From Photobacterium profundum SS9 (GTDB lineage: Bacteria; Pseudomonadota; Gammaproteobacteria; Enterobacterales; Vibrionaceae): a stretch of 64,000 bases of DNA. The notes beneath the pieces were generated by a model that was given only the letters and a program-made list of their open reading frames with translations, ran no database searches and was not told the DNA's origin. The stretch lies in assembly GCF_000196255.1 (NCBI RefSeq), contig NC_006370.1, positions 1,394,187 through 1,458,186 of the forward strand. The letters are read 5' to 3'. Position numbers and translations under genes: made by a program. Positions 11,978 through 62,955 of this stretch are shown here, one piece after another; within the stretch, counting starts at the first letter, position 1, and each line of letters opens with the position of its first letter.

Positions 11978-12202
11978 CTACGAGTCTTCAGAATTATCCC
12001 CGTCATGTTTCACTGCATACCGAATTGCTGCCCCACAAATCATAATTAACAAAAAAGGAATGGTAGCTACGGTGTATTCTGTCCATGCTTGATATGCAAT
12101 GCTTTTCGCCATAAGCAAATGCCCTAAGATTAATAATGCGGCACAAAGCAATGCGACCAACATCAATCTGCCTTCACTGCCAATGGACGATATTTTCATC
12201 AT
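11978..12202 (-). CDS. Small two-helix membrane protein
   Basis: 74 residues. Two hydrophobic segments are clear, about residues 13-32 (LMLVALLCAALLILGHLLMA) and 44-63 (TVATIPFLLIMICGAAIRYA), with a charged Asp/Glu-rich end. AAGGAG at 12209-12214 lies six bases before the first of two tandem ATGs, a strong argument that the gene is real. Family and role are unknown. The inner-membrane location is inferred from the helices. Confidence 0.65.
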   Translation of the reverse strand: MMKISSIGSEGRLMLVALLCAALLILGHLLMAKSIAYQAWTEYTVATIPFLLIMICGAAIRYAVKHDGDNSEDS

Positions 12203-12240
12203 TTTTATCTCCTTGTTATATACAGAAGCTACCTAAAGAC

Positions 12241-12289
12241 AAACGCTGAAGCCACTTTGAATCCTGCATATTGAGGTAGCTTGGGTATA
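12241..12289 (+). repeat. Right-end fragment of the 266-bp palindromic repeat
   Basis: This 49-bp piece matches the last part of the full copy at 12374-12639, including the terminal TTGAGGTAGCTTGGGTATA. Only 84 bases separate it from that copy, so two insertions or a partial duplication occurred here. Confidence 0.75.
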
Positions 12290-12373
12290 ACAGTCATTAT
12301 TAAACTGCATTAATGACAAAACAAGGTAACACAATCAGTGAATTAGAAGGGTGTAACAGTTAGGTGATGATTC

Positions 12374-12639
12374 TATACCCAAGTTACCTCAAGATGCTCG
12401 TTTCAGCGAGAATTTGTTGTGCTCTAGGCAAGGCGCTGATTTATAGACCTAGTCGTTCTACGTTGAAAATAAGTAACACCGCATAGAACACAACAAAACT
12501 CGCCCTTCGGGAGTGATTCAGCGTATCTACTTCTGTGTCAAATATGTTTGAAAGGGAAAGCCATTCCTACGCACATTTTCCTTGAATTAAACACGCTGAG
12601 ATCACTCTGAACCCTGCATATTGAGGTAGCTTGGGTATA
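12374..12639 (+). repeat. Full 266-bp palindromic intergenic repeat, subfamily 1, copy A
   Basis: The ends are imperfect inverted repeats of about 24 bp (TATACCCAAGTTACCTCAAG at the left, matching TTGAGGTAGCTTGGGTATA at the right). Internal blocks shared with the other copies are TCAGCGAGAATT, AACTCGCCC..CGGGAG, CTTCTGTGTC and CCTTGAA. Internal arms TTGTTGTGCTCTA / TAGAACACAACAA and AGTGATTCAGCGT / ACGCTGAGATCACT pair, so the whole can fold as a branched structure. No ORF. Copy B at 17878-18143 is the same length and near-identical, in the opposite orientation. Confidence 0.9.
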
Positions 12640-12784
12640 CACGTAGTGTGACGGGGCGGATAGTTGAATTATGAATTCCTCCGTTTTAACCCACACGATG
12701 ACGATAAATTGAACCAATAGTGCTCTATGCTGTATCAAATTAATGGGGCCTTTTATGTAAGACAGATATTTTCAGGATAAGCTG

Positions 12785-14323
12785 ATGCAATTAAAACTAA
12801 CAATGTTGGTAACGGTCTTAAGCATTTTCAGTCCGTTCTTGTGGGCTACTACGTCTCCTAGCTTTGATTGTGATAAAGCAAGTAGTCAGATTGAAGAGCG
12901 TATTTGTACGGATGATGCCCTTGCTGTATTAGACATGAAGATGGAAAAGGTTTATGAGCAAGCGCTCCAGAATATTCCGGATTCAGAACGTTCAATAATG
13001 AAATCAATGCAAAGAGGCTGGATTAAAGGTCGTAATGAATGTTGGAAAGGACAAGATGAGCGGGCTTGCGTTGAATATGCCTATAAAAATCGAATAATCG
13101 ATTTACAAGTTGCTGGTGGGCTAATCGAAGTGCCTTCGCCTGTTGGTTTTAATTGCCAAAATATGGCAGATAAACCCGTTACCGTGGTCTTTTATAATCA
13201 AACTGCCCCTGCCAGTGCAATGATTACCGTCGGTGATGACCAAGCGTTAGCCTTCTCGACTCGAACAGTGAGCGGTGCACGGTATGACGGTCAAAATGTT
13301 AGTTTATGGGAGCACCAAGGTGAGGCCTCACTCGAATGGTTTGGTACAAAAATGCAATGCCAAGCAATAAAGCGAACAGAGGGTAGCTCGCAATTGAATA
13401 GCCTTAATAATAATGAGGTTCAAGAGCCAATCAATCCAGTGGCGATGAATGCGAGCAATGATGCATTTTCATTTTCAGCATTAAAAAACACGGCATATCA
13501 GGGGTTCGAAAGTGGTGCTGATCGCCGAGTTGTTTTAAATAATGGTTTATGGATAGGTGAACCCTATCAACCTGGCGGCGCCGTTTCACCGCAAGTTATG
13601 CTTATTGGTGGTATTAAAGCTATCGGTGACTTAAATGGTGACGGTGAAGATGAAGCCGTTGTGCTATTAAATTATGCCCCAGGTGGAACAGGGCAGTTTT
13701 TAAATTTAGCGGTTATGTCGAAGTCGGGAACTCAAGCATCAGGTAAAGCTGACAATATAGCGACCATATTTGTCGGTGATCGGGTACGTGTTCGCGATCT
13801 TAAGATTAAAAATGGCAAGATTGTTTTAGGTGTTGTGCAAGTAGGCCCCAAAGATTCCATTTGTTGCCCAGGAGAAGTGGCTGAAAGAGTATGGCAATTA
13901 AATGGCACGACGTTACAAGAATTAGACTCGAATAAGCAAACGTCACGGCTGAGCCTTAAAACGTTAGCTGGAAGTTCATGGGTACTTGAGAGTTGGCGCT
14001 ACGGTGAATCTGCTCGTCAATCAAAGCCTATTACGTTGTCTTTCCAAGATAATAAATTCGTTGGTCAATCGGGCTGTAACCGTTATTTTGCTACAGTGAA
14101 AGCGGGGAAAATGCCGGGTGATATTTCAGTATCTCCACCGGGCTCAACGCGTAAAGCTTGCCAAGATCCAACGCTATCAAAAAACGAAAATCGCTTTTTA
14201 AAACAGCTTGCAGACGTTCATCAGTTCTCATATTTTGCGGGTAAACTAGCGTTAAGCTATGGGCAGGGCAGTCATTATGGAGTGATGATTTTTTCGCTTG
14301 ATTCATCGTTAAAATCTGAGTAA
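12785..14323 (+). CDS. Secreted multidomain protein: LprI-like, MliC-like and META domains
   Basis: 512 residues with a signal peptide (to about residue 21). Residues ~27-112 resemble the LprI/DUF1311 lysozyme-inhibitor-type domain (FDCDKASSQIEERICTDDALAVLD). Residues ~122-197 resemble the C-type lysozyme inhibitor MliC, with its SGARYDG segment and flanking cysteines. Residues ~210-375 are an unassigned region with DLNGDGEDEAV, a calcium-loop-like or beta-propeller-like signature. Residues ~395-510 resemble a META/HslJ domain (LAGSSWVLESW ... SGCNRYF). The parts suggest protection of the wall against host or environmental lysozymes, but the combined architecture has no single-family precedent that I know. 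Stand-alone gene with its own terminator. Confidence 0.75.
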   Translation: MQLKLTMLVTVLSIFSPFLWATTSPSFDCDKASSQIEERICTDDALAVLDMKMEKVYEQALQNIPDSERSIMKSMQRGWIKGRNECWKGQDERACVEYAYKNRIIDLQVAGGLIEVPSPVGFNCQNMADKPVTVVFYNQTAPASAMITVGDDQALAFSTRTVSGARYDGQNVSLWEHQGEASLEWFGTKMQCQAIKRTEGSSQLNSLNNNEVQEPINPVAMNASNDAFSFSALKNTAYQGFESGADRRVVLNNGLWIGEPYQPGGAVSPQVMLIGGIKAIGDLNGDGEDEAVVLLNYAPGGTGQFLNLAVMSKSGTQASGKADNIATIFVGDRVRVRDLKIKNGKIVLGVVQVGPKDSICCPGEVAERVWQLNGTTLQELDSNKQTSRLSLKTLAGSSWVLESWRYGESARQSKPITLSFQDNKFVGQSGCNRYFATVKAGKMPGDISVSPPGSTRKACQDPTLSKNENRFLKQLADVHQFSYFAGKLALSYGQGSHYGVMIFSLDSSLKSE

Positions 14324-14332
14324 GTAAAATCA

Positions 14333-14391
14333 AACGCAGCCAATATTCGTTCACCATAGTAATGGGTTTTATGGATATTGGCTGCGTTTTT
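14333..14391 (+). terminator. Strong terminator after the lysozyme-inhibitor-like gene
   Basis: AACGCAGCCAATAT (from 14333) pairs perfectly with ATATTGGCTGCGTT, followed by a T-run to 14391. The loop is about 30 nt and A+T-rich. Confidence 0.8.
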
Positions 14392-14429
14392 AATGGTAGA
14401 TCTAACATCAAAAAGTGAATCGTAATCCA

Positions 14430-14594
14430 TTATTCTTGAAGCTGAATACCGCCATTCGCTTGCGCATTTTTAAGTAAAGCAAGGCGTTTACTGTCTGATT
14501 CTGAGAGTGTATCTTTAGATAAAACAGGATCTGGGATGCCGTTTGTTGTGTCTAAATGCAGAGTAAAAATATAATTTTTATTAAACGTTAACAT
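14430..14594 (-). CDS. Short ORF or gene remnant, 54 residues
   Basis: The frame from ATG 14594 to TAA at 14430 reads with good codon texture (IPDPVLSKDTLSESDSKRLALLKNAQ). It stays open about 19 codons upstream of the ATG (NILCISTYSIEPLH) before an in-frame stop. No ribosome site was seen before the ATG. It looks like the 3' end of a secreted or periplasmic protein whose front is lost, or a small orphan gene. No family recognised. It occupies most of the 375-bp gap. Confidence 0.35.
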   Translation of the reverse strand: MLTFNKNYIFTLHLDTTNGIPDPVLSKDTLSESDSKRLALLKNAQANGGIQLQE

Positions 14595-14765
14595 GTGTAA
14601 TGGCTCTATGCTGTATGTGCTTATGCATAATATGTTGTCGTCTACTGGTTAATTAAACATCATCCCTGTTCTTTTTTTTAGTAGATGAGGTAGCAGGCGT
14701 AGATTGAATCAACGAAGGTGTAGTTATCACTTTTTTGATTAAATATGCTTGCGACCTTCAACAAA

Positions 14766-15797
14766 TTACTTGCTGGCTTGGTCTTTTAATCGTTGAATAG
14801 CTTGTTTTGCAGAATTAAATGCAAAGTTATTCAGTTCAATGTCTTGTAGCCTGATCCATTCGATTTTTTCTACATCATCCCTGGCTTTTAGTGCTGGTTT
14901 TTCGTCTAAAGTAATAACGAAAAAAGTATCACAGGTTTTATATTCAATATTTTTGTAACGGTATGTATTTGGGTATGACGCGGTATATTTTGCATCATGC
15001 ACTATAAAATCAAGTTCTTCTTGTAACTCTCTTGCCAAGGCTTGCTCAAGCGATTCATCAGGATCAACAAACCCTCCAGGAAGGTCTAACATCCCTTTAC
15101 CTGGCTCTCTTGATCTGGTCGCGACCAAGATTTCGTCTTTATAACAGATGCCTGCTAGAACAGCCGCAGCTGCATTGTGAAAATACGTGAAATCACATGT
15201 ATCGCAACAAAACACTTTTGGTGGTTGAAAGGCTAAACTAGCTTCACCACAAGATGGACAATAATGTTGTTTTGTTTTAGAAGTACCTAGCCAAGTTAGA
15301 ATAAAATCGGCAATGTCTTGTGGTTGGTTAAGATCGAGTATTGGTAGTTTGCAATGCTGTTTGGCTTGTACGATTTCATCGGTTGTGAATGCAATGATAT
15401 GTTCATCATTCGAGTACAACAAAGGTTTCCCATAAGCAGGGCGGTGAATTTCGATTTTTGGGAATGTCTCATCCCTAAAGCCTTCTACTAACACAAGATC
15501 TAATTGATTGTGGTCTAGTTGAGCCAAACATTCTGCTAGTGCAGGTTCGTCACGTTTTAGATCTGTATATTCGAAATATAGCATGTGACGTGACTTTGTG
15601 GCTAAAAGGGTTTGATCACAACCTGCATGACGAAGGCGGTAGCTATCTTTTCCTGGTTTATCGGGGTCGATGTTATGGTGACTGTGTTTGACTAAACCAA
15701 TACGTAATCCTTGCTGCTTTAACAAAGGAATAAGCTTTTCAAGTAAGGTTGTTTTACCTGAGCCACTGTAGCCTGCAAAACCAATTATTGGGGTCAT
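14766..15797 (-). CDS. MobB-NUDIX fusion protein
   Basis: 343 residues in one frame. Residues 1-170 are MobB, the GTP-binding partner of MobA in making molybdenum guanine dinucleotide cofactor: P-loop GYSGSGKTT at 9-17, LVKHSHH, and LVLVEGFRDETFPKIEIHR. Residues ~180-201 are a four-Cys zinc ribbon (CPSC and CCDTC). From ~205 a NUDIX hydrolase follows with a complete Nudix box: G242, E248 and RELQEE at 256-261. The zinc ribbon plus NUDIX half resembles NudC-like or ADP-ribose-type pyrophosphohydrolases. The fusion suggests the NUDIX half acts on a pterin or guanine nucleotide linked to cofactor synthesis, but this is inference. There is no mobA beside it. Confidence 0.88.
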   Translation of the reverse strand: MTPIIGFAGYSGSGKTTLLEKLIPLLKQQGLRIGLVKHSHHNIDPDKPGKDSYRLRHAGCDQTLLATKSRHMLYFEYTDLKRDEPALAECLAQLDHNQLDLVLVEGFRDETFPKIEIHRPAYGKPLLYSNDEHIIAFTTDEIVQAKQHCKLPILDLNQPQDIADFILTWLGTSKTKQHYCPSCGEASLAFQPPKVFCCDTCDFTYFHNAAAAVLAGICYKDEILVATRSREPGKGMLDLPGGFVDPDESLEQALARELQEELDFIVHDAKYTASYPNTYRYKNIEYKTCDTFFVITLDEKPALKARDDVEKIEWIRLQDIELNNFAFNSAKQAIQRLKDQASK

Positions 15798-16105
15798 ATT
15801 CGTCTTAATATATCATCGTAAAAATAGATGCACATTTTAGAGGAAATTAGACGTTACGTCATTGTCAGTTAACAGCATGTTTTTTGCCACATAAACGGCA
15901 TAGTTATTTAATTATTGTACTGAAGTTGAGTAATTGATGAATTTTTACTCCTGAAATGCATATTCGGTCTAAAGTTATTTTGTAGCTAGGTTATTCAATT
16001 GTCTGACAGCTTGAGCGATAAAGTAACAACGAGAAAAATGAAAGATAAACAGGATGGTGTCTTTCACATCGAGTAATTAATAATAATGGCATCAGGGAGA
16101 GTGCA
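15798..16105. other. 308-bp intergenic gap, divergent promoters
   Basis: A+T-rich, no ORF, repeat or strong hairpin found. It must hold the promoters of the divergent MobB-NUDIX and exonuclease genes. GGGAGAG just before 16106 is the ribosome site of the latter. Confidence 0.4.
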
Positions 16106-16591
16106 ATGTGGGCGACGTTGGATTTTGAAGCTTCTGGATTATCAGATCAATCTTACCCAATTGAAGTAGGTTATTCTTTACCAGACGGTAATGGAGAAAG
16201 TTTACTCATCAACCCTTTAACAGCAAGCGATGTATGGCAGCATTGGGACGATTATGCTGAAAATGAAATACATCGAATTTCACGAAAAGAGATTGAAATT
16301 AAAGGAAATCAAGTGGTTGAAGTGTGCCAACATTTAAATGCTGTTCTTGGTAAATTTGAACATGTTTTTTGCGACAGCCAATGGGATCTTTTTTGGTTAG
16401 GCCGGCTTTATCATGCGGCGCACATGCGACCCTCATTTATGTTGACAGAAATTGGGCACTGGCTAATGCAAGAAAATGGTATTGAGCGATCACGCTTTCA
16501 ATTGGCATTGGAAGAGCAAGGTCCGATAAAGCACCGAGCAATGGAAGATGCCAAACAAATTCGACTCGCAATAACACGTTTAGTGGAATGA
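16106..16591 (+). CDS. DEDDh-type 3'-5' exonuclease-fold protein
   Basis: 161 residues. Acidic metal ligands appear at D6 and E8 in the typical first strand (LDFEASGL), an internal Asp in CDSQWDLFWL, and the last motif HRAMEDAKQI supplies the general-base His and final Asp. That is the DnaQ/RNase T superfamily in compact form, with no extra domain. The substrate (DNA or RNA) is not readable. The gene is followed 114 bases later by another nuclease-fold gene on the same strand. Confidence 0.78.
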   Translation: MWATLDFEASGLSDQSYPIEVGYSLPDGNGESLLINPLTASDVWQHWDDYAENEIHRISRKEIEIKGNQVVEVCQHLNAVLGKFEHVFCDSQWDLFWLGRLYHAAHMRPSFMLTEIGHWLMQENGIERSRFQLALEEQGPIKHRAMEDAKQIRLAITRLVE

Positions 16592-16705
16592 AAGAGTATA
16601 GTAAGACAGATTAAATAATGACACTGTAGCTGCTGGTAAAGTGGTTACAGTCGTTTGTTAAGTCGTTACAATTACACCATTATCCCTTTCTTCATTGAGC
16701 GGCTC

Positions 16706-17821
16706 TTGCTTACCCAGACTCTACGTGTTGCCATGTTTAATGTATCAATGTCTGAACCTGTATCAGGACAAATTCTTAAACAAACGGCTAACGCCGAAAA
16801 TAAACGCTTTTCTAAACTCGCCGCTATTATCCAGTCTGTTCGTCCTGATGTGTTGTTACTGTGCGAATTTGACCATCCAGGTGGCGGTGGTGATGACGGC
16901 GCACTAGCCAATTTTCGACGTCATTATTTGGCTGTACCTCAGCATGAACACGTTGGAATTGAATACCTTTATCAATACTGCCCGCCGAGTAATACTGGGT
17001 TATTAAGCCCATTTGATTTAAATAGTGATGGTGTAATTAGCCTGCCGGAAGATGGGTTGGGTTTTGGTGAACATCATGGTCATTTTAGCTTTGTGATTTT
17101 GTCTCGTTATCCCATTCAAGTCGATCAAATTCGCAGCTGGCAGCATCTATTATGGCGAGACATGCCTGAACATTGTATTCCTGAAGGTTTCTACAGTGAA
17201 CAAGCACAGAGTGTATTGCGTTTGTCGTCAAAAAATCATATTGTTGTACCCATAGACGTGAATAATCAGGTTATTCACTTATTGTGTTGCCATCCAACCC
17301 CGCCTGTTTTTGATGGTGAAGAAAAGCGTAATGCGCGTCGTAATCATGATGAATTACGTTTAGTCACCGATATTATCAATAACGCTGATTATTTAGTGGA
17401 TGACAACGGTAAAAATGGTGGGTTATCCAAAGCTGATTCGTTTGTAGTACTGGGTGACTTAAATGCAGACTCAGCGGATGGTGATGGTATCAAGGCTGCA
17501 ATTCAAGGCTTGATTTACCATCGCAGAATTAATCGCTCAGTTAGCGCGGGTACACTTACACCGAAGAGTCTCGGTGGTCGTTTTCATCGACCTTGGCAGC
17601 CTCGTTCTGGTCGTTCAAATGAGTGGACGCATTTAAGCGGTTTACGATTGGATTATGTATTACCGTCTGTGGATCTCAGTGTTAAACAAACAGGGGTATT
17701 CTGGCCGGATAAAAAAGACCCTTTGCGCCATTTAATTACCAATGAAAAAGGTAAAGAGCGAGCACAAGATGGCTCTGATCACCGCTTAGTATGGGTCGAT
17801 TTACAGTTGTGTTCTCAATAA
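16706..17821 (+). CDS. Endonuclease/exonuclease/phosphatase-family protein
   Basis: About 371 residues. The first strand and motif are LRVAMFNVSM; VLLLCEFDHPG carries the catalytic Glu; VLGDLNADSADGDG carries Asp and Asn; GSDHRLVWVDL is the C-terminal Asp-His pair. The insert between motifs (NFRRHYLAVPQHEH, LNSDGVISLPEDGLGFGEHHGHFSFVILSRYPI) is typical of a bacterial EEP subgroup often annotated just as endonuclease/exonuclease/phosphatase. The start is uncertain: no ATG precedes the first strand, and TTG 16706 with GAG upstream is the best option. An earlier TTG at 16655 and ATG 16733 are alternatives. No clear signal peptide. Confidence 0.82.
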   Translation: MLTQTLRVAMFNVSMSEPVSGQILKQTANAENKRFSKLAAIIQSVRPDVLLLCEFDHPGGGGDDGALANFRRHYLAVPQHEHVGIEYLYQYCPPSNTGLLSPFDLNSDGVISLPEDGLGFGEHHGHFSFVILSRYPIQVDQIRSWQHLLWRDMPEHCIPEGFYSEQAQSVLRLSSKNHIVVPIDVNNQVIHLLCCHPTPPVFDGEEKRNARRNHDELRLVTDIINNADYLVDDNGKNGGLSKADSFVVLGDLNADSADGDGIKAAIQGLIYHRRINRSVSAGTLTPKSLGGRFHRPWQPRSGRSNEWTHLSGLRLDYVLPSVDLSVKQTGVFWPDKKDPLRHLITNEKGKERAQDGSDHRLVWVDLQLCSQ

Positions 17822-17877
17822 AAAACAAAGTGCTAACCCTCAATATATCAATGTGACCTATCTTTAATGAGAGCCAT

Positions 17878-18143
17878 TATACCCAAACTACCTCAAGATG
17901 CAGGATTCAGAGTGATCTCAGCGTATTTAATTCAAGGAAAATGTGTGTAGGAATGGCACTCCCTTTCAAACACATTTGACACAGAAGTAGATACGCTGAA
18001 TCACTCCCGAAGGGCGAGTTTTGTTGTGCTCTATGCGGTGTTACTTATTTCCAACGTAGAACGACTAGGTCTATAAATAAGTGCCTTGCCTAGTGCCCAA
18101 CAAATTCTCGCTGAAACGAGCATCTTGAGGTAACTTGGGTATA
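17878..18143 (-). repeat. Full 266-bp palindromic intergenic repeat, subfamily 1, copy B
   Basis: Same length and nearly the same sequence as copy A (12374-12639), inverted. It fills the gap between the EEP gene and prpC and ends 47 bases before the prpC start, so it probably lies within or just before the prpC promoter region. Confidence 0.9.
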
Positions 18144-18190
18144 AGCTCTAGTCATGTATAGAGATGTGTTTTAACGACAAGGAGTGGGTT

Positions 18191-19318
18191 ATGCCAGGTA
18201 AAGTATTAAGCGGTGAAGGGCTTAGGGGACAAAGCGCAGGCTCAACCGCGATTTGTACCGTGGGTAAAACGGGAGCAGGGCTCACTTATCGGGGCTATGA
18301 TATTTCCGATTTGGCAGAGAGTGCTGATTTCGAAGAAGTGGCTTATTTACTGTTAAAAGGAAAGTTGCCCACTCAGGCACAATTGGACGCTTATAAAACG
18401 GTACTGATTTCTTATCGTGGCTTACCGCTGGCATTGAAGGTGGTGTTAGAACAAATACCTGCCGATGCTCACCCTATGGACGTGATGCGAACAGGGTGTT
18501 CTATGCTAGGAAATTTAGAACAAGAACATGAGTTTAGTGAAGAGTACGACAAAGCCGACCGTTTACTTGCACTATTTCCGGCCATTATTTGTTATTGGTA
18601 TCGCTATAGTCATCATGGGGTTCGTATTGAAACCTATTGCGATCAAGATAGCCTAGGCGGCTACTTTTTGAAAATGCTGACTGATAAGTCACCTTCTGAA
18701 TTACATAAACGTGCCATGCACTGTTCGTTAATTCTTTATGCCGAGCATGAGTTTAACGCCTCAACATTTGCCGCGCGTGTTTGCGCCTCGACATTGTCTG
18801 ATTTACATTCTTGTATTGCCACCGCCATTGGTACGTTACGAGGCCCGTTACACGGTGGCGCAAATGAAGCGGCTATGGCAATGATTGAACAATGGCAAAC
18901 TACCGATGAAGCTGAAGCGGGTATTTTGACCATGTTGGCGAACAAAGATAAAATCATGGGGTTCGGGCACGCGGTATATAGCGAATCTGACCCACGTAAC
19001 GTGTTAATTAAACGGTGGTCGAAATTGTTATCAGAAGAAGCTGATGATGCAGTGTTATATGCGATTTCAGAACGTGTAGAAACCGTGATGAAAAGGGAAA
19101 AAGGCTTATTTTGTAATGCAGATTTCTTTCATGCTTCGGCGTACCATTTTTTGAATATACCGACAAAACTGTTTACCCCTATTTTTGTTATGAGTCGCTT
19201 AACCGGTTGGGCTGCGCATGTGTTCGAACAACGTGCTCATAATCGTATTATTCGCCCAAGTGCCGATTATATTGGGCCTGAACACCAAGATTGGTTACCG
19301 ATTGATAAACGGCATTAG
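18191..19318 (+). CDS. prpC: 2-methylcitrate synthase
   Basis: 375 residues from ATG 18191, chosen because AAGGAG at 18179-18184 is well spaced (the frame opens upstream at 18164). Citrate-synthase active-site elements are present: LHGGANEAAM and IMGFGHAVYSESDPRN histidines, and FCNADFFHASAYH with the catalytic Asp. Overall it matches the short PrpC type, which condenses propionyl-CoA with oxaloacetate to 2-methylcitrate. prpB, acnD and prpF, usually adjacent, are absent here. A palindromic repeat lies directly upstream. A housekeeping citrate synthase is less likely given length and motifs. Confidence 0.85.
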   Translation: MPGKVLSGEGLRGQSAGSTAICTVGKTGAGLTYRGYDISDLAESADFEEVAYLLLKGKLPTQAQLDAYKTVLISYRGLPLALKVVLEQIPADAHPMDVMRTGCSMLGNLEQEHEFSEEYDKADRLLALFPAIICYWYRYSHHGVRIETYCDQDSLGGYFLKMLTDKSPSELHKRAMHCSLILYAEHEFNASTFAARVCASTLSDLHSCIATAIGTLRGPLHGGANEAAMAMIEQWQTTDEAEAGILTMLANKDKIMGFGHAVYSESDPRNVLIKRWSKLLSEEADDAVLYAISERVETVMKREKGLFCNADFFHASAYHFLNIPTKLFTPIFVMSRLTGWAAHVFEQRAHNRIIRPSADYIGPEHQDWLPIDKRH

Positions 19319-19357
19319 TATGCAAATATAAACAAGAAAGTATCTGATAGAGAGACA

Positions 19358-19984
19358 ATGGTGAATCATGATTTATTTGCGGCACTAGAGGCTGATGATG
19401 TGAGTTCAAAAGGGGAGTGGATAACCATTCCTCAGGGTGTGTTGTATTGGTCACCTCAACACTTTTCGCCATCGCAAGCGGAACGTTATTTTCAGTGTTT
19501 ACTTTCTGAGTTACATTGGCGACAAGAATCGATTCGTATTTTTGGTAAGCAAGTTCTGCAACCCCGCTTACAGGCTTGGTGTGGAGATGTACCTTATACC
19601 TATTCGGGTTTAACTATGAATCCCGATCCTTGGACGACGACATTACAATTGATTAAAGAAAGCTGCCAAGCGATCACGAATACATCGTTTAATTCGGTGC
19701 TCGCCAATCAGTACCGAGATGGCAGTGATTATATGGGGTTTCATCAAGACAATGAGAAAGAGCTAGGTATTCAGCCTGTCATTGCTTCGGTGAGTTTGGG
19801 TGAAGAGCGGCGCTTTGTATTAAAGCACTTGCACACCAAGCAAAAAATTGAGTTTACAATGCATTCTGGCTCATTACTGATCATGGCGGGTGATACTCAG
19901 CAATATTGGGCGCATTCCGTACCTAAAACCGTCAAGCCGATACTACCTCGAATTAATCTCACGTTTCGACATATTTACAGATAA
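19358..19984 (+). CDS. alkB: AlkB-family 2-oxoglutarate/Fe(II) dioxygenase
   Basis: 208 residues. The iron facial triad appears as H-x-D in GFHQDNEKELG and the distal His in YWAHSVPK, with the 2-oxoglutarate Arg pair in PRINLTFRHI. LANQYRDGSDYMGFH is the typical substrate-lid/strand region. These enzymes remove alkyl groups from damaged DNA or RNA bases. The length and motifs resemble the AlkB/ALKBH2-like group rather than E. coli AlkB itself, so substrate preference is open. It lies 39 bases after prpC, possibly cotranscribed without functional link. Confidence 0.85.
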   Translation: MVNHDLFAALEADDVSSKGEWITIPQGVLYWSPQHFSPSQAERYFQCLLSELHWRQESIRIFGKQVLQPRLQAWCGDVPYTYSGLTMNPDPWTTTLQLIKESCQAITNTSFNSVLANQYRDGSDYMGFHQDNEKELGIQPVIASVSLGEERRFVLKHLHTKQKIEFTMHSGSLLIMAGDTQQYWAHSVPKTVKPILPRINLTFRHIYR

Positions 19985-20126
19985 CTTAGTGTGAGCAATT
20001 TAGTCTTTGTCTTATCTTAGAGAAAGCAGCCTGATGTCTCATTCTTAAACATTATTACTCTTTTTGGCTTTCTTTTGACCGTTTTCTGACGTTTGATTGG
20101 TAGCGTTTTTGTGCGTGTAATATGTA

Positions 20127-20391
20127 ATACCAAATCCATTAATTATCTGATCAGTTCAGCGAGAGTTAAAATACTTTTAGGCAAGGAGATAAATTGAGAA
20201 TCTAGTGGCTCTAAATTGAAATTTATTAACGCAGTATAAAAGTATTTTAAACTCGCCCAAAGGGAACACCACTGGAAGTCAACTTCTGTGTCTAGCGATT
20301 TCAAAAGAGAACCACTCTTCTATCAAACGCTATCCTTGAACTCGACTCCCAGTGGTATTCTGAATGGTCAGATAATTAATGGAATTGGTAT
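20127..20391 (+). repeat. Full 265-bp palindromic intergenic repeat, subfamily 2, copy C
   Basis: Ends are ATACCAAATCCATTAATTAT and its partner ATTAATGGAATTGGTAT. It shares the internal blocks TCAGCGAGAGTT, AACTCGCCC, GGGA and CTTCTGTGTC with subfamily 1, but the paired arms differ: AAAATACTTTTA / TAAAAGTATTTT and ACCACTGG / CCCAGTGGT. It lies between alkB and the DUF3541 gene. Confidence 0.88.
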
Positions 20392-20453
20392 AATTGCTGT
20401 TGAATAACAACAGATCGTTGTCTTATAGAATAGGCTAATGTTCAAGGAGCGGT

Positions 20454-21593
20454 ATGAAACCTTCAATCTTAAAATCGTTATCTAGTATTAAGTTACGAAT
20501 TGTTCCTGTCATATCGTCGGTATTGTTAACAGGGTTGATTGCATCGACAACAGTGAATGCGACATCAAGTAGCGTTGAGCCGTCTGCGGTAACAAGTACT
20601 TTTCAGCAAGATGCCAATATGATTCGTGATACTTATGAATCGCAGCTCTACACATTACCAGCGTTTAAATCTGGTCATTATGGATTGAGAATGTATCGCC
20701 AAACACTCGACTCTAAATACAACGCAGCGGTATGGTCAGACATGGCACGGGTTGCGAGTCGCTTAAATAAATTTGCTACTGAAGTGCATACACCTGAACA
20801 GATTGCAGCGTATTCAAAACAACGCATAGATGGCTACCTTGATGAAAAAGATGAACGCAGTCAATTACGTTATGCCGCAACGAAGAATATGCCTGAATAC
20901 TTATACCTTGGTGTTGATCTATTAGGTTCGATGGCTCGCGCCAATGAATATGGTCTTAAACACCGTGAAGATGAAAAGCTGCGTAAGGTAATAGAACGCT
21001 ACGATTTTAAAAAGTATGCGACGAATGAAGCGATGATCAAAGCGTGGGCTGCGCAAATAGCCAATCAGGTATATTGGTTACGCCAGTTAGGCGAACAGGA
21101 TGTGGTCGATGATTTCATTACGGCGTTTAAAAAAGCGTACCCAGACAATCAAGATAGCCAGCTTTCAGCTTACCAGTTTGGCAATAAAATCTATGGCTTA
21201 ACCCATATTGTTTTTGCAGCATCAGAATATTATCAACACCCTATTAAAGAAAAAGATTACCAATGGATCTTTGATTATTACCGACAAAATATCGATACTA
21301 TTATTGAAAGAGCCAAAGAGGATGTGATTGCAGAGGTGGGTATTAATTTCTTATTGGCTGGTTTAGACAATGATCCTGTTGTATTAAAAACACGAAAAGT
21401 AATTCAAAATGCGATAAACCGTGAACATGGCATAGTACCATCGGTTAGCGGTGGTGTGGGTCTACTCGATGGGGAGCACCGTAATACCTTAGCCATTATG
21501 TTGTTAGATTGGCAAGGGGCACATGCCGCGCCTACCTATAATCAACAACCTGATGTTTTCTCGTCGATGCCTTACGGTTTAGAAGCGAAGTAA
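20454..21593 (+). CDS. Secreted DUF3541-family protein
   Basis: 379 residues with a signal peptide or N-terminal anchor (hydrophobic to about residue 36, then VNATSSS). The body is helical, with segments such as TYESQLYTLPAFKSGHYGLRMYRQ and AYQFGNKIYGLTHIVFAASEYYQ, matching the DUF3541 family found mainly in Vibrionaceae and relatives. Function is unknown. AAGGAG lies six bases before ATG 20454. Single-gene unit downstream of repeat copy C. Confidence 0.75.
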   Translation: MKPSILKSLSSIKLRIVPVISSVLLTGLIASTTVNATSSSVEPSAVTSTFQQDANMIRDTYESQLYTLPAFKSGHYGLRMYRQTLDSKYNAAVWSDMARVASRLNKFATEVHTPEQIAAYSKQRIDGYLDEKDERSQLRYAATKNMPEYLYLGVDLLGSMARANEYGLKHREDEKLRKVIERYDFKKYATNEAMIKAWAAQIANQVYWLRQLGEQDVVDDFITAFKKAYPDNQDSQLSAYQFGNKIYGLTHIVFAASEYYQHPIKEKDYQWIFDYYRQNIDTIIERAKEDVIAEVGINFLLAGLDNDPVVLKTRKVIQNAINREHGIVPSVSGGVGLLDGEHRNTLAIMLLDWQGAHAAPTYNQQPDVFSSMPYGLEAK

Positions 21594-21689
21594 ACGATTC
21601 GAATAATAAAAAACAATAGCAATGAAGTGTTCTGAAATGGTACAAAAAACTCGCCACAGTGTAATTAGCACCATGGCGATAGTGTCTAT

Positions 21690-22298
21690 TTAGAAGTATT
21701 TGCCTTTTATCGTGTTGTATTTACCTTTTAAACGACTGACAGTAAATGTTTTAACGGTAATGTTAGGCGACCAATAAGCAGCGTTCCAACCTGCTTTTTG
21801 TTTTAGCTGGCGAACAAACTGTTGGGGCTTTGGCAGTTGTTTCCAGACTTGTGGTAAGAACAATGCTTGTTTATTACCATTTGATAAAATCACACCCACT
21901 TTATGAGAACTTAAGAATTCAATTAACGCTTCTTCAGACTCGATATCGACGATTTGAGGTTCTGATAAAACAGAAATCTCAATGGTTAAATCATCAAGTT
22001 GATCTTCTGTTAGTGGCATAAAGCGCCGGTCTTCATACGCACTTGCTCTGGCTTTATTATGTACTTCAAGCACCAATGGCGAGTACGCAACCGTTGAACC
22101 AAGGCAACCTTGTAGCTGTCCGTTAACTTCTAATGTGACGAAGCAGGCGGAAGGGGCTAATAATTTCTTATGGTATAAATCAAGTTGTGGGGTTTTAATA
22201 ACGCCTGTTGATAAATGCCCACGAATCGCTTCACGAGCAATATCTAAAAGTTGAGTTAATTCCCCTTTATTGAATTTCTGATATGAGGTAACTGACAT
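21690..22298 (-). CDS. amrA: AmmeMemoRadiSam system protein A (AMMECR1 domain)
   Basis: About 202 residues from ATG 22298 (MSVTSYQ), preceded by an AAGGAGAG stretch. The AMMECR1 core is clear: CFVTLEVNGQLQGCLGSTVAYSPL, then RFMPLTEDQLDDLTIEISVLS. It overlaps the end of the next upstream gene (protein B) by 32 bases, so they are translationally coupled. Together with the Memo-like B protein and the divergent radical SAM protein it makes the widespread trio of unknown biochemical function; a role in modifying a nucleobase or similar aromatic substrate has been proposed from comparative genomics. Confidence 0.88.
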   Translation of the reverse strand: MSVTSYQKFNKGELTQLLDIAREAIRGHLSTGVIKTPQLDLYHKKLLAPSACFVTLEVNGQLQGCLGSTVAYSPLVLEVHNKARASAYEDRRFMPLTEDQLDDLTIEISVLSEPQIVDIESEEALIEFLSSHKVGVILSNGNKQALFLPQVWKQLPKPQQFVRQLKQKAGWNAAYWSPNITVKTFTVSRLKGKYNTIKGKYF

Positions 22299-23049
22299 AT
22301 CCAACGACTCTCTCCTTATCTCCAGCGGTATCACCAGAGTTTTTTAATTCCATTCGTGTTAATTGGTATCCTCGTTTTTTTGCTAGTAGTAGCAACGCAT
22401 TAATTCCTGTTGAGCCACACGCTTGCTCTGCAGTTAATGATGGTTCAAAACGTTCGATGGTAGAGCAGGTGTTTTGATCAATACATTGTGCATCCGCATA
22501 GGGATGAAAATGGCTCAAATCGCTACTTATTACGAGTAATGTATCGTCTTGTTGCCACAAAGCATCAATGATTTTTGCTACCTTGATAAAGGAAACATTA
22601 CTCGTGAGCAATGGTAATAAAGTAAATTGATGCAAACACGTTTGTAAAAAAGGCAGTTGTACTTCAAGGCAATGTTCTTGCGCATGAACTTGCTCTGATA
22701 CCTTAATATCATCTATTTTAATTAAATTATCAATAGATTGTACGTCGATTGATACGCTTCCTAATGGCGTCGAAAAGTAGTCTGAATTAGGCACTGCGCA
22801 ACCATGAAAAGCGTACCTGTGGCTTGGCCCTATCAAGATGACCTTTTTAATGGTTTCTGCTTGAAGCTGGCAATACGCTTTTGCTGCAACCTCACCAGAA
22901 TAGATATACCCCGCATGCGGCACGATTAACGCGCGGATTAAATCGCGATGTGTCGTTGGGGGTGAACACCAATCATCAAGCTGTTTTTGCAACAATGGTG
23001 CAGATTCTTCATAAAATCGACCAGCTACTGCTGGGAGACGCATTGTCAT
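22267..23049 (-). CDS. amrB: AmmeMemoRadiSam system protein B (Memo-like)
   Basis: 260 residues. Starts MRLPAVAGRFYEES as usual for Memo proteins (a second ATG at 23043 is equally likely). Metal-site histidines are visible in VPHAGYIYSG, GPSHRYAF, QEHCLEVQLPFL and SSDLSHFHPY. Memo belongs to the class III extradiol dioxygenase-like fold. The complete histidine set suggests it binds iron or another metal. It is divergent from the radical SAM gene by 86 bases, so all three genes can share one regulatory region. Confidence 0.9.
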   Translation of the reverse strand: MTMRLPAVAGRFYEESAPLLQKQLDDWCSPPTTHRDLIRALIVPHAGYIYSGEVAAKAYCQLQAETIKKVILIGPSHRYAFHGCAVPNSDYFSTPLGSVSIDVQSIDNLIKIDDIKVSEQVHAQEHCLEVQLPFLQTCLHQFTLLPLLTSNVSFIKVAKIIDALWQQDDTLLVISSDLSHFHPYADAQCIDQNTCSTIERFEPSLTAEQACGSTGINALLLLAKKRGYQLTRMELKNSGDTAGDKERVVGYVSYLISEIQ

Positions 23050-23135
23050 AGGCCTACTTCCATAGAAATCACACAGATATCCTGTACCGGACTATATTTA
23101 GTATAGGTAAGGAATTTCCTTTGTGAGTCATAAAC

Positions 23136-24215
23136 ATGCAATCACCTCCAGACTTTTTTAAAACACAGTATTGGCATCGTTTAGATGATGGTCGCGTTGT
23201 GTGTGACTTGTGCCCACGTCATTGCCGGTTGCGCGATGGCAAGCTTGGGGCATGTTTTGTTCGGCAAGCACACAATGGGGAAATTGTTTTAACGAGTTAC
23301 GGGCGTTCAAGTGGGTTTTGTATCGATCCTATCGAAAAAAAACCGCTCAATCATTTTTACCCGGGCAGTTCTGTTCTTTCTTTCGGAACAGCAGGATGTA
23401 ATTTAAGTTGCAAATTTTGCCAAAATTGGAGTATCAGTAAATCTCGTAAGATTGATACTCTAGGACAGCAAGCCATGCCAGAACAAATTGCCCAAGCGGC
23501 AAAATCACAGGGCTGTGATAGCATCGCTTTTACTTATAACGACCCTGTGATTTTTTTGGAGTATGCCGTCGATGTTGCTCAGGCATGCCATGAAGAAGGA
23601 ATTAACAGTGTTGCGGTGAGTGCGGGCTATATATGCGATGCGCCTAGAATCGATTTTTTCCGTTATATGGATGCGGCCAATATTGATTTAAAAGCTTTTA
23701 CAGAGCACTTCTATCATAAAATTTGTAGCGGTCACCTCGCGCCAGTACTTGATACCTTGTTGTACCTTCGACATGAAACGGATGTGTGGTTTGAAATAAC
23801 CACGTTATTGATCCCTGATGAAAACGACAGCATTGCTGAAATCGAAGCATTAAGCCATTGGGTATTTGACAATTTAGGATCCGATATTCCCATTCATTTT
23901 AGTGCCTTTCATCCCGATTTTAAAATGAATGATAAGCCCAGAACTGCGCCTTATATTGTGCAGCGAGCTAGAGAAATTGCGATTAAGAACGGATTACATT
24001 ATGCCTATGTCGGTAATATTTATGATGAAGCAGGAGATAGTACTTATTGCCCAAATTGTAGTGAAAAAGTGATTTCACGTAATTGGTTTCAGCTTGGACA
24101 ATATGCTGTAGATAGCACTGGGAAATGTTCATATTGTGGTTATCAGTTGGCAGGACGGTTTGCTGCAAAGAAAAAAGCGTTCGGACGGCAGCGTATTCCA
24201 ATTCGTATTAGCTGA
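23136..24215 (+). CDS. amrS: AmmeMemoRadiSam system radical SAM enzyme
   Basis: 359 residues. A four-Cys cluster near the N-terminus (CDLCPRHCRLRDGKLGAC) precedes the radical SAM motif CNLSCKFC. The barrel continues with FTYNDPVIFLEY and VSAGYICDA, and a C-terminal zinc-ribbon (CPNC then CSYC) with a basic tail follows. This is the pyruvate-formate-lyase-activase-like architecture of AmrS. It probably uses SAM to create a radical on a substrate acted on with the A and B proteins. The start at ATG 23136 is conventional for the family. Confidence 0.9.
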   Translation: MQSPPDFFKTQYWHRLDDGRVVCDLCPRHCRLRDGKLGACFVRQAHNGEIVLTSYGRSSGFCIDPIEKKPLNHFYPGSSVLSFGTAGCNLSCKFCQNWSISKSRKIDTLGQQAMPEQIAQAAKSQGCDSIAFTYNDPVIFLEYAVDVAQACHEEGINSVAVSAGYICDAPRIDFFRYMDAANIDLKAFTEHFYHKICSGHLAPVLDTLLYLRHETDVWFEITTLLIPDENDSIAEIEALSHWVFDNLGSDIPIHFSAFHPDFKMNDKPRTAPYIVQRAREIAIKNGLHYAYVGNIYDEAGDSTYCPNCSEKVISRNWFQLGQYAVDSTGKCSYCGYQLAGRFAAKKKAFGRQRIPIRIS

Positions 24216-24322
24216 TTTTTTACTGAGTTTTTTTTATTGAAATATTGTATTCGACCATTGTGTTTGACCCACGCTTTCCATTATCGTACAGCTACAAAGT
24301 TAATCAGCCCAAATGGAACACC

Positions 24323-24631
24323 ATGTCTACAATGACCATTGAACAGTTATCAGAATACAAAAACCTTGTAATTACTCAGCCACATTGCCCATTTTGTGTA
24401 AAAGCAAAGGCGCTTTTAGATGATCGCGATACTGAGTACACAACATTAGTACTCGGTACTGATCTTGAAAAAACAGAGATGGTTGCTTTCATCGAGCAAG
24501 TTGCGAATACGACAGTTCGCACCGTGCCTCAAATTATGCTTGATGGTAAATTCATTGGTGGTCATGATGATTTAGTCGCTTTTCTTGAGCGCCAAGTGAA
24601 TACCGAAGAATTAGGTGATTTCGAACTATAA
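24323..24631 (+). CDS. Glutaredoxin
   Basis: About 102 residues from ATG 24323 (MSTMTIEQL). The dithiol active site CPFC is in TQPHCPFCVKAKALL. TVRTVPQIMLDGKFIGGHDDL is the glutathione-binding TVP and GG region. Length fits a GrxA/GrxC-type protein with a short N-terminal addition. The frame is open from 24245, but that part has no glutaredoxin similarity. A terminator follows immediately. Confidence 0.85.
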   Translation: MSTMTIEQLSEYKNLVITQPHCPFCVKAKALLDDRDTEYTTLVLGTDLEKTEMVAFIEQVANTTVRTVPQIMLDGKFIGGHDDLVAFLERQVNTEELGDFEL

Positions 24632-24644
24632 GTTTGAATGACTT

Positions 24645-24668
24645 CAAAGGCTCCTACGGGGGCCTTTT
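24645..24668 (+). terminator. Terminator after the glutaredoxin gene
   Basis: AAAGGCTCC pairs with GGGGGCCTTTT around a TAC loop, with a T-run. A similar hairpin with most of the same bases occurs at 28341-28362. Confidence 0.75.
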
Positions 24669-24946
24669 AAAATCATTTTTAACCAATTTATTACATATTA
24701 ATTCAATGATTTATCGATAAAAATGTTGCTGGGTATTGTTAATTATTGCTGTTTTTTTGTCATAATGTGGACAATGGATTTAGTATTTTTGCTTCATTTA
24801 AGTTGTCAGGTGCTAAGTGCGCATATGTCATGGTTTGCAACACCCCCCATGTGAGTGAGATCCATGGGGCTGATGGTGGCTTTCAGGTGATTATGGCTTG
24901 TTGAAATACCGCGCCTTACACCCATTTCGTAATTTCAGCTTATGGG

Positions 24947-26869
24947 TTAAATCTTAAACTGCCCAATTAGATTCTTTAAACGGCCGGATAATGCATTTAG
25001 CTGATGACAGGCTTCTATCGTCTGGCTGGAAGCATCTGACGTTTGATAGCTTTGTTCGCTGATTTTCTCTATGTTCCGGCCGATATCAGAAACCACGGCA
25101 TTTTGTTCTTCCGTCGCGGTCGCAACCTGGGTGTTAATATCATTGATGGTGGAAATGGTTTGCTGAATCGCGGCTAAAGAGCTACCTATCTTGCCTGCCA
25201 GTTCTAAGCTTAATTTACTGCTGCTTTGCCCTTCATCCATCACATCAACGGCTTCTTTGGTGCCTTGCTGCAGTTGTGTAATCATTTCCTGTATTTCAAG
25301 CGTTGATTGGTTTGTTCTGTGTGCCAGTGAACGAACCTCATCTGCGACAACAGCAAATCCCCGGCCATGATCGCCGGCTCGGGCTGCTTCAATCGCAGCG
25401 TTCAGCGCGAGCAGATTGATTTGATCTGAAATACCATTGATGACATCGATGATGGCTCCAATTTTGTCGGTTTGATGGGCGAGGTTGGCAATGACCGAAG
25501 AGGCTGAATTAACATTGCGAGATAACGTTGACATCGAGTCAATGTTGCTTTGGACAATATCGATGCCGTTCGACACTTCATTGTTGCCTTGCTGAGCCGA
25601 GTCCGCAGCGATTGAGGCGTTGCGTGCCATTTCCGAAATGGTGGTGCCCATTTCATTAATCGCCGTTGCGATTTGCGTTGTCTGCTCTTTTTGATCCTCT
25701 ACAATATTTCCTGCACCTTCAGAGAGCTGTTTGGTGTTTTCAATTGAGGTGACCAACTCTGTACTGACTTGTGAAACTTCTTTTATCGAATCGTGTATTT
25801 TTTCGATAAAGCTATTGAAGCCTATTGAAAGCTCAGTTATTTCATCATTACCTTTTATTTCTAATCTCTGGTTGAGATCGCCTTCACCTTCACCAATGTC
25901 GCGCATTAAATGGGCGACATTGCGGATCGGAGTCACGATCTTTGCGGCTAAAAGCGCAGCAAGAAAGGTGAATAATACCGCCAGGGCGATGTTAATGAGG
26001 ATGTTTTTTTCAGTGACGGAGTCAAAGGCGCGGTATAGCTCTTTTTCAGAAATTTCAGCAACAATATACAGATCAATAATGGGCAAATAACTTGAGGCAA
26101 TAAGGTGTGTACCTTGATCGGTATTCAGTTTATCAAGGCTGAACTCTTGCTGATTCAGCAATGTTGATGTCAGAGAAGCGGGTAACTGATTTTTCATTAT
26201 GCCCGTCTCAGGCTGTATTCTGATTTCGCCCTGTTGTGAGACAAGATACACGCCACCTGTTTCGCCCAACTTGTATTGTCGCAGCATGTCGGATAATTGA
26301 CTGAGGTCAATTGCCATACCAGAAAACGATAGCGGCTCGCCATTTTTAGTGGTCAGATTATTGATAAATAGGCGTTCCTGTCCTTCTTGGCCAGTATCAA
26401 AAGTCAGATTGACGGCTTCACCAGTACGAAGTTGGTTATATAACCATGAGTAGGCTGGATCATCGGCTGAAACTGCCCCCCTGAGCCCTTCGCCCGAGCG
26501 GTAGTCATGTAAGCCTTTCATTGAAACCAGGAAGGTACCGTTTACATTTTCCATCCTCGCCAGCGAATCTAATTGGCTTAAGACTTCGGCCCGCCTGCTA
26601 TCGGGTTCGCCATTTATTATCCAGTTCTGAATAAAGACATTGCTGGCTAATTGATTGGCTGCTTGAACCGGAAGGTTAATATCACTTTCTATGGCTTCAC
26701 GAATGACCGCAAGGGCCGTCGGTAACTGTTGCTCTTCAACTTGCTTGAGCATCAACTGTTTTACCTGATAATTGTTTATCAGTGTTGTTGCTGAAAGTGA
26801 GAAGAGTAGCGCAATACAGGTAGCGAATATGATTTTATTTTTTATTGATATGCGATTGAGCTTATTCAT
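24947..26869 (-). CDS. Methyl-accepting chemotaxis protein with a dCache-type sensor
   Basis: 640 residues. TM1 is about residues 13-30; a ~250-residue periplasmic region resembles a double Cache domain ([40 protein letters not shown]); TM2 is about 290-312; a HAMP domain ([23 protein letters not shown]) and a long signalling coiled coil follow, with the tip [20 protein letters not shown]. It ends FKI with no CheR-binding pentapeptide. The ligand cannot be predicted. Codon use is richer in G+C (many GCC, CTG, CAG) than neighbouring genes, and it sits next to decayed sequence, which suggests acquisition. Confidence 0.92.
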
Positions 26870-26906
26870 TGGTTACTTCTACTTCAGGTAGCAAATAAGA
26901 GGGGGT

Positions 26907-27169
26907 ATACCAACACCGTTAAATATCTTGTCATTCAGAGCTTCTCTGGGAGGCAAGTTCCAGGATAGTGATTGAAGGAAGGGTAGATCCCTTTTGAAAT
27001 CGCTAGACACAGAAATTGCTTTCCAGAGAGGCTCCCTTCGGGCGAGTTTAAAATGGTCTTATACTGCGTTGAAAGCTTTTGATTTAGAACCCTAGAACTT
27101 CAATCTTTCGCCTAGTCTAAAGCCATTTTAATTCTCGCTGATTGGTAAGATATCTAATGGTGTTGGTAT
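26907..27169 (-). repeat. Full 263-bp palindromic intergenic repeat, subfamily 2, copy D
   Basis: Read on the minus strand, it starts ATACCAACACCATTAGATAT and ends TTTAACGGTGTTGGTAT. It shares TCAGCGAGAATT, AACTCGCCC, GGGA and TTCTGTGTC with the other copies. Its own arms AAAATGGCTTTA / TAAGACCATTTT and CTCTCTGG / CCCAGAGA pair with each other while differing from copies A-C. Confidence 0.88.
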
Positions 27170-27256
27170 TTTATTCATCCGTTCATTAACAAAAGAGCGC
27201 CATGGTTTAAATACTAATTGGCATCCATGGCGCGTCGAGAAAATGACTGTAGTGAG

Positions 27257-29995: not shown

Positions 29996-30097
29996 TAAAG
30001 TTCGCCCTCGGGAGTGCCATTCCTGCACATATTTTCCTTGAATTAAATACGTTGAGGTCACCCTGAATCCTGTATCTTGAGGTGACTTGGGCATATA
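29996..30097 (+). repeat. Internally deleted copy (E) of the subfamily-1 palindromic repeat
   Basis: Contains TTCGCCCTCGGGAGTG, then jumps to CCATTCCTGCACATATTTTCCTTGAATTAA-like sequence and the right end TCTTGAGGTGACTTGGGCATATA. The left half and the segment between the two internal arms are lost. Confidence 0.75.
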
Positions 30098-62837: not shown

Positions 62838-62891
62838 ATATACCCCAATAAATTCTCGTTGAAACGAGCATCTTGAGGTGACTTAGGTATA
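62838..62891 (-). repeat. End fragment of the subfamily-1 palindromic repeat
   Basis: Contains AAATTCTCGTTGAAACGAGC and ATCTTGAGGTGACTTAGGTATA, matching one end of copies A and B. The rest of the element is absent. Confidence 0.7.
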
Positions 62892-62955
62892 GCTGTTAAA
62901 ACCGATGTTAATAGGGCGATTTTATTTTTGTTGTGTAGAGTGGCATTTCTAAAGA

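Follow-up and report, generated by a model that had tools for sequence, protein, structure and literature searches.

The window analysed here, a stretch of 64,000 nucleotides of Photobacterium profundum SS9 (contig NC_006370.1, positions 1,394,187 to 1,458,186), carries four full copies (c1 to c4) of a palindromic element of 266, 266, 265 and 263 bp, all lying between open reading frames (ORFs) of at least 80 amino acids. An earlier reading of the window, made from the sequence only, had described these copies as intergenic and nearly equal in length, with two types of ends, a set of paired arms and constant stretches between the arms. This description holds: TATACCC ends (group 1) and ATACCAA ends (group 2) are both present, the arm pairs are found in the sequence, and TCAGCGAGA, AACTCGCCC, GGGA and TTCTGTGTC are invariant in c1 to c4, each read in one orientation.

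Copies in the window and in the genome

The element is composed, in orientation F, of a terminal repeat, TTCAG, arm A, a small hairpin CCC-nnn-GGG, arm B, CTGAA and a second terminal repeat. The terminal inverted repeats measure about 27-34 nt and each arm is a hairpin module of about 100 nt. Arm A is closed at its base by GCGAG/CTCGC, continues through an internal loop CAAGG/ACGCAG and ends in an apical TAG-TnnTT-CTA; arm B, on the opposite strand, has its parts in the same order. The copies and their arms are collected in Table 1, where R1 is a model made from 55 arm A sequences and R2 the corresponding arm B model; the E-values of both are rough.

Table 1. Copies of the element, their arms and shortened derivatives, in window positions
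Feature	Position	Strand	Description
c1	12374..12639	+	TATACCC ends (group 1); TA dinucleotides enclose the element proper, 12376-12637
c1 arm A	12402..12505	+	module on + strand; R1 100.5 bits, E 5.4e-27
c1 small hairpin CCC TTC GGG	12503..12511	+	sits between the two modules; sequence and fold
c1 arm B	12509..12611	-	same module on - strand; R1 61.1 bits, E 1.9e-15; R2 98.6 bits
c2	17878..18143	-	group 1; TA duplicated at either end of the element proper (17880-18141)
c2 arm A	18012..18115	-	R1 100.7 bits, E 4.7e-27
c2 arm B	17906..18008	+	R1 68.1 bits, E 1.7e-17; R2 106.5 bits
c3	20127..20391	+	group 2, ATACCA ends; TAA on each side (20125-20127, 20391-20393)
c3 arm A	20155..20258	+	R1 100.9 bits, E 4.1e-27
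c3 arm B	20262..20364	-	R1 53.4 bits, E 3.5e-13; R2 85.4 bits
c4	26907..27169	-	group 2, separate subfamily; without matching target duplication
c4 arm A	27040..27142	-	R1 89.5 bits, E 9e-24
c4 arm B	26934..27036	+	R1 57.8 bits, E 1.7e-14; R2 93.7 bits
Short group-1 derivative, about 71 bp	12219..12289	.	internal deletion, ends kept; repeat search, left boundary by eye
Truncated copy	30010..30095	+	arm B side and one end only; repeat search, sequence
Short internal-deletion derivative, 54 bp	62839..62892	-	repeat search, sequence

The genome (6,403,280 bases in 3 contigs, two of them of 4,085,304 and 2,237,943 bases) holds 119 matches to the core pattern TCAGCGAGN{80,110}CTCGCCCN{2,4}GGGA, 53 and 66 by strand, and none to the reversed pattern, a frequency well above chance. 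A similarity search with c1, in which the best 40 of 298 candidates were scored, gave at least 72 matches, at least 41 of them near full length. The copy number in this genome is about a hundred or more. Copies were extracted only where ATAC...GTAT occurred with flanks complementary to each other; matches at locus edges were skipped, and among the 185 others the ends were found in 173 and not in 12. From this genome, 85 of the 119 copies were extracted with their flanks, and 83 of the 85 have no overlap of more than 30 nt with an ORF of at least 80 amino acids, the ORFs being found mechanically. The neighbouring ORFs of the 84 copies flanked on both sides are in tandem in 53 cases (30 with the element in one orientation, 23 in the other), divergent in 17 and convergent in 14. 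No description of the element was found among the titles and abstracts listed by the literature searches, which covered few subscription journals.

One module, twice, on opposite strands

Arms A and B are one module in inverted orientation, since the model of each arm detects the other arm on the opposite strand. R1 finds all four arms B of the window (E 1.7e-17 to 3.5e-13) and R2 all four arms A (E 1.1e-14 to 6.1e-13); up to E 10 each model has 8 matches in the 64 kb, which are the eight arms. The sequence-only reading had treated the element as one structure; both these models and the wobble polarity described below show instead two facing copies of one module.

Pairing within the arms was analysed on 58 chosen representatives, 57 of which were aligned (L253, with an inverted arm, was left out) and 55 of which entered the arm alignments (without L157 and L161). 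Three pairs per arm with less than 60% pairing were removed before the covariation analysis; for arm B the apical stem was redrawn manually. Arm A (35 pairs) is paired in 93.1% of cells, against 33-44% with slid partners, and arm B (34 pairs) in 92.2%, against 33-47%. Changes on both sides of a pair occur in 28 pairs of arm A (380 cells, against 107 in shuffles) and in 33 pairs of arm B (495 cells, against 140). The covariation scores are 0.56 and 0.72, with shuffled means of 0.17 and 0.21, and were reached in none of 500 shuffles. The five basal pairs of arm A are invariant because the search pattern required them; this pattern fixes also the small hairpin, and extraction fixes the ends, so that none of these is independent evidence of pairing. 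The pairing covaries strongly, and the possibility that the arms pair only because copies are inversions of one another does not hold, as pairing occurs within each copy and covaries over the 55 sequences.

Two unusual copies were met in the genome G000. In L253 (G000:C3:917776-917885) the hairpin of arm A has undergone a natural flip, its interior standing in inverted orientation between the flanks. L219 (G000:C2:2814094) is a chimaera with group-2 ends and a group-1 arm A, an exchange of modules between subfamilies.

A strand that folds tolerates G-T (G-U) wobbles, which are A-C mismatches on the complementary strand, and the two arms differ in this respect. Among the 57 aligned representatives, read in orientation R after the removal of six pairs, arm A has 11 G-T and 81 A-C cells (more G-T in 6 sequences, more A-C in 36), whereas arm B has 141 G-T and 54 A-C cells (more G-T in 39 sequences, more A-C in 5); counted by pair, arm A gives 2 versus 18 (sign test 0.0004). 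As A-C on one strand is G-T on the other, each arm favours wobbles on its own strand, and the two strands are opposite. The same lean is seen in distant families, where 31 module matches from 18 loci, in module orientation, contain 934 Watson-Crick, 68 G-T and 6 A-C cells, with more G-T in 29 of the 31 rows and more A-C in 1; this alignment was fitted to a model that itself leans to G-T, and we doubt that such a lean would produce a tenfold difference. A further set, A5, brings together 24 sequences of arm A, 18 of arm B and 10 from distant loci. Given the opposite polarities of A and B, it seems that the acting unit is the single strand of each arm in its folded form, and not one transcript; a structured RNA made of the whole element is disfavoured. 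Whole-strand folding energies are lower in one orientation in 118 of 148 copies, which is suggestive but mixes both arms.

Changes private to single copies behave differently from those that separate the representatives. Distinct private single changes number 38 G-T, 36 A-C and 39 others in 59 group-1 copies, and 11, 12 and 11 in 17 group-2 copies. Since these changes show little polarity, the fold appears to be selected mainly in the lineages that spread, and copies would decay roughly neutrally after landing. The earlier claim that the fold is selected is supported, and is narrowed in that selection does not appear to act copy by copy. This comparison of G-T with A-C per arm, made both for representatives and for private changes, can be applied generally and may help to separate a selected single-strand fold from mutational repair of a palindrome.

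Insertion sites, distribution and changing ends

Boundaries and flanking duplications were mapped, as the sequence-only reading had proposed, by comparing window positions 11500-28000 with eight relatives. The copy c2 is missing in the relatives G011 and G031, where the flanking matches overlap by two bases: the filled site reads CAT-TA[TACCC...GGGTA]TA-AGC and the empty site of G011 CAT-TA-AGC, TA being present once in both relatives. With their two-base target duplication, these empty sites show DNA transposition for c2. The relative G018 also lacks c2, together with 10 further target bases. At the c1 site G031 has no element and altered target letters, and G011 and G018 carry internal deletions that keep the outermost letters. 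The copy c3 is missing in G018 and G031, where the target letters have diverged and no clean duplication is readable; c4 is present in G018 and, by a spanning match, in G011.

The flanks of extracted copies (170 in total) extend this picture. In group 1, the ATAC...GTAT unit stands between T and A (T before, A after) in at least 97 of 109 copies. In group 2, 34 of 61 copies are flanked by TAA/TAA, the commonest, or TTA/TTA, and identical flanking 3-mers reach 57%, against 26% after shuffling. The duplication is read from empty sites in two relatives for c2 (TA) and from flank statistics only for group 2 (TWA); for the CTAG type described below a possible duplication is read from ends only. The element is short, has terminal inverted repeats and many intergenic copies, and at c2 has a duplication and empty sites, the features of a miniature inverted-repeat transposable element (MITE). 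Where the earlier reading had offered a structured RNA or a mobile single-stranded DNA, the latter comes nearer, given the empty sites of c2.

Micro-derivatives of 52-71 bp, with both group-1 ends and the modules lost, are found in the genus Photobacterium, for example at loci L333, L334, L341, L342 and L346, and further at L355, L362, L364, L372 and L373. A lone group-1 terminal repeat lies directly before the start of a 567-aa ORF (TATACCCAAGCTACCTCAAGATGCATTGAAAGGAAGTAATAGATG) at L360 (G000 C2:1596440) and L367 (G018 C12:196034), and the same 30 nt match at G031 C1:262119, as if the end of the repeat had become part of a 5' leader.

The element is not confined to Photobacterium profundum. 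The exact pattern is present in 24 of 52 genomes of the genus and in 98 of 329 of the family, covering 5 of 13 genera; these counts are lower bounds because the family members G152, G205, G278, G304 and G317 lack the pattern and yet have model matches. At least 120 stretches of named records contain the pattern, and Vibrio, Photobacterium, Grimontia, Enterovibrio, Thaumasiovibrio, Colwellia, Thalassotalea, Psychrosphaera, Alteromonas, Paraglaciecola, Motilimonas, Aliagarivorans and Shewanella are among the matches listed, which are pattern matches checked mostly by extraction alone. Two records, of Acidimicrobiaceae and Streptomyces, with the pattern failed extraction and were taken as chance.

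At E of 1e-4 or less, R1 matches 56 of 229 evenly drawn Gammaproteobacteria in 50 of 196 genera, and 55 of 299 genomes in a sample of the phylum, the own genome being included in both; 29 of the latter do not belong to Gammaproteobacteria, and 27 of these 29 come from a single family represented mostly by fragmented assemblies. A second, inverted module follows 3-4 nt away in 13 of 19 loci of one set and in 7 of 8 of another. As a negative control, R1 gave no match at E 0.01 in 521,712 viral bases. Core-pattern matches in 23 viral stretches were taken as chance, as R1 finds nothing in these or in 35 others, and no blastn match of c1 was found among 50,697 phage records. In a plasmid collection, 7 records match c1, 5 of them over most of its length; two of these 5 exceed 2 Mb and are more like second chromosomes. 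A degenerate copy lies beside fimbrial genes on a Photobacterium damselae plasmid (L326 5601-5726), and a second plasmid record has the same match.

The surprising part is that the folded interior is kept across many families while the ends differ. Among 13 distant module pairs that were measured, 11 have a total length of 266-277 bp; L389 measures 294 bp, and the length of L383 is inflated by a palindromic contig. At that locus the sequences on either side of the element make up a perfect palindrome over the 70 nt compared per side, probably an assembly artefact. The ends of 12 of the 13 are of other types, for example CTAGTGTCCTGTC, CTAGTGTA-TGCGTC, CTAGTAC or TACTCC, mostly with CTAG or a near form on both sides; L378 has TACC like group 2. 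A CTAG-type end agrees with group 1 at 3 of 27 positions, which is no match.

Mode of movement and alternative explanations

On balance we consider it probable that the element is a non-autonomous, MITE-like transposon made of terminal repeats and two inverted hairpin modules, with a conserved folded interior and changing ends. The target duplication points to DNA transposition, and the element would be moved by a trans-acting enzyme, most likely a DDE transposase. The flip of polarity makes a folded single strand at each end the likely substrate: the hairpin of each module would fold as single-stranded DNA from the strand with its 5' end at the terminus in question, in a cruciform or in a replication intermediate at the fork. 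The hairpins may be bound in a two-fold symmetric complex and recognised, or otherwise needed, in transposition, so that only well-paired lineages would spread. Ordinary MITEs have conserved ends and filler inside; a conserved folded inside with differing ends is the reverse of what is usual in small mobile DNA. This suggests that transposition of bacterial DNA includes a step in which structure is read, one that textbooks do not describe. It also offers a way into the old problem of what moves the enterobacterial repetitive intergenic consensus (ERIC), for which we know of no transposase.

A wider version of this proposal is put forward tentatively, and we lean against it as it stands. The element would be built inside-out: a pair of single-strand hairpin modules, one per DNA strand, would be recognised by the trans-acting enzyme and would have persisted across much of Pseudomonadota, with replacement of the terminal repeats and even of the target duplication (TA, TWA, CTAG-like). 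ERIC would be a reduced relative that keeps one set of ends.

Several results weigh against transposition of folded DNA as set out above. The same polarity would be expected of arms that each work as RNA. Counted by pair, arm B shows no significant polarity (19 versus 10, sign test 0.14), and the outer stem, in the same representatives and orientation, shows little of it: 65 G-T versus 42 A-C cells, 25 versus 13 sequences, 10 versus 8 pairs. Counted as distinct changes (G-T/A-C 10/14 in arm A, 18/13 in arm B) or as cells (15/47 and 51/19), the private changes of group 1 lean slightly, arm by arm, in the direction of the representatives, which speaks against strictly neutral decay; we read this lean as small inherited subfamilies. 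Not every element with ends of this type requires modules, since ERIC shares the ends and lacks the modules. Finally, the search for an autonomous partner met no such element with these ends and no end-matched pair of 300-4500 bp beyond ordinary copies in 194 sequences, and the two transposases that it met between ends were rejected. These, of the IS66 family in L361 and of the IS4 family in L365, belong to insertion sequences that have their own terminal repeats and are nested in copies.

The partner search, in which a subset of the ORFs near ends was scanned, took in group-1 ends that are not followed by the usual core, present in 20 of 52 genomes of the genus. The 50 such loci viewed contain full copies with a shifted core, 52-71 bp derivatives, lone ends, and longer pairs of ends of 1355-2604 bp (L335, L361, L362, L363 and L365). 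The two transposases were the ones found by Pfam in 20 ORFs from group-1 end loci and L284; their insertion sequences are flanked on both sides, as read by eye, by AAGATGCT (L361) and TACCCAAGC (L365). Ends of the CTAG type match in 4 of 6 genomes. The 30 loci hold lone ends and end pairs spanning 147-290 bp; at L472, where two short pairs lie, there are in addition two cross-pairs between them, of about 0.9 and 1.1 kb. Pfam gave no transposase in 10 ORFs beside lone CTAG-type ends, 5 of which match no family, and 35 viral stretches with the 14-mer contain two weak end pairs and, by eye, no transposase. In G000, two solo modules separated by 4.3 kb with ordinary genes turned out to be one truncated and one decayed copy.

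Two observations were made beside this search. The nested insertion sequences, at L361 4560-6328 (IS66) and at about L365 5645-7010 (IS4), show apparent duplications of 8 and 9 bp of element letters. At L284 7491-7925, near a decayed copy, a 144-aa ORF matches the Pfam family Y1_Tnp (IS200-like transposase).

Among the alternatives, the one that survives best, unlikely as we hold it to be, is that each arm is a structured RNA, so that transcription either way yields one functional hairpin, regulatory or serving the spread of the element. Tolerance of G-U and avoidance of A-C are expected of RNA, the loop motifs are constant and the private changes have a slight polarity; moreover another MITE, QMITE1, is reported to yield small RNAs (PMC5896051). 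The flip of polarity, however, means that no transcript holds two arms of the preferred sense, and tandem gene contexts show no clear preference of orientation (30 versus 23). Rfam (4227 models) gave only tRNAs in the window, and no match for the c1 region at a permissive threshold or for six distant loci.

That the element is no more than a longer ERIC, of a kind already described from Vibrionaceae, appears improbable. ERIC, also called IRU, inserts at TA, and like our element it is small, palindromic and mostly intergenic, with ends TATAC(C/T)C...ACTTCAAG-TGCA near those of group 1. Seven ERIC loci were fetched and the ends of three of them compared: the right ends agree with the group-1 consensus at 19, 20 and 19 of 27 positions and one left end at 18 of 27, scores that shuffles of the last 20 nt equal in 0, 0.005% and 0.015% (right) and 0.05% (left) of cases; the best single group-1 copies reach 21-22 of 27 against the right ends. 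Group 2 agrees at 7-9 of 27, which is no match. An ERIC-type variant is reported from Vibrio, and ERIC measures 127 bp (PMC2759123), against 263-266 bp for the element. Within ERIC, R1 and R2 gave at most 4.6 bits, background, on one Escherichia coli copy, and the inner-module model R3 gave no match in any of the 7 loci; ERIC is not supported as a carrier of the module though its ends match, and a short likeness CAAG...AACGCAG inside it was seen by eye only. The earlier hunch of a likeness to ERIC is borne out by the group-1 ends; it does not extend to the interior by these models. Relatives with quite different ends, in addition, keep the modules.

The weakest alternative, pairing by mutation alone, where template switching during replication of hairpins copies one arm onto the other without selection, is very improbable. 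It could draw on the 49 double Watson-Crick alternatives of group 1 (27 transitions and 22 transversions, 14 of the latter without a one-step intermediate), many of which come from three divergent copies (L001, L220 and L221), and on the copy with an inverted arm A interior (G000 C3:917776). Exchange such as that in this copy and in L219 does occur, but it does not produce the polarity. The pairs that template switching makes are of the Watson-Crick kind, without wobble polarity and above all without opposite senses in the two arms, and it leaves the conserved unpaired motifs unexplained.

Other known systems resemble the MITE-like transposon proposed here in part. IS5-superfamily subgroups have target duplications TA, TNA and YTAR, and the three kinds of flanks of the element fit the range of their MITEs; no insertion sequence with the element's ends was found in the partner searches, and assignment to this superfamily is a guess that serves as a lead only. 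REPINs with RAYT are not known to duplicate their target, whereas c2 duplicates TA. REPIN or BIME elements (PMC3116915) share with our element an inverted pair of units, a single-strand hairpin and compensatory changes; the element differs by its terminal inverted repeats and target duplication, and by a unit of about 100 nt against the short REP. QMITE1 of Coxiella burnetii, compared by its description (PMC5896051), measures 300-400 bp, with terminal repeats of 21-28 nt, direct repeats of 2-4 bp and a conserved core with variable ends. It is like the element in size range and in all these features, and differs in the promoters and short reading frames on its copies and in that, as the paper reports, no relatives were found elsewhere; peptide words taken from it gave 8 scattered matches in the fetched loci. 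YPAL (RU-2) of Yersinia, again compared by its description (PMC2759123), is a palindromic intergenic repeat like the element, of about 168 bp, and differs in length and known distribution.

The window contains other repeats as well. A tandem 170-bp repeat at 58159-58498, whose second unit is 96% identical, overlaps the end of a tRNA cluster (57707-58175). A repeat pair of 103 nt with 84% identity lies at 27667-27769 and 55328-55430, and a direct repeat of 56 nt with 89% identity at 53725-53780 and 55076-55131.

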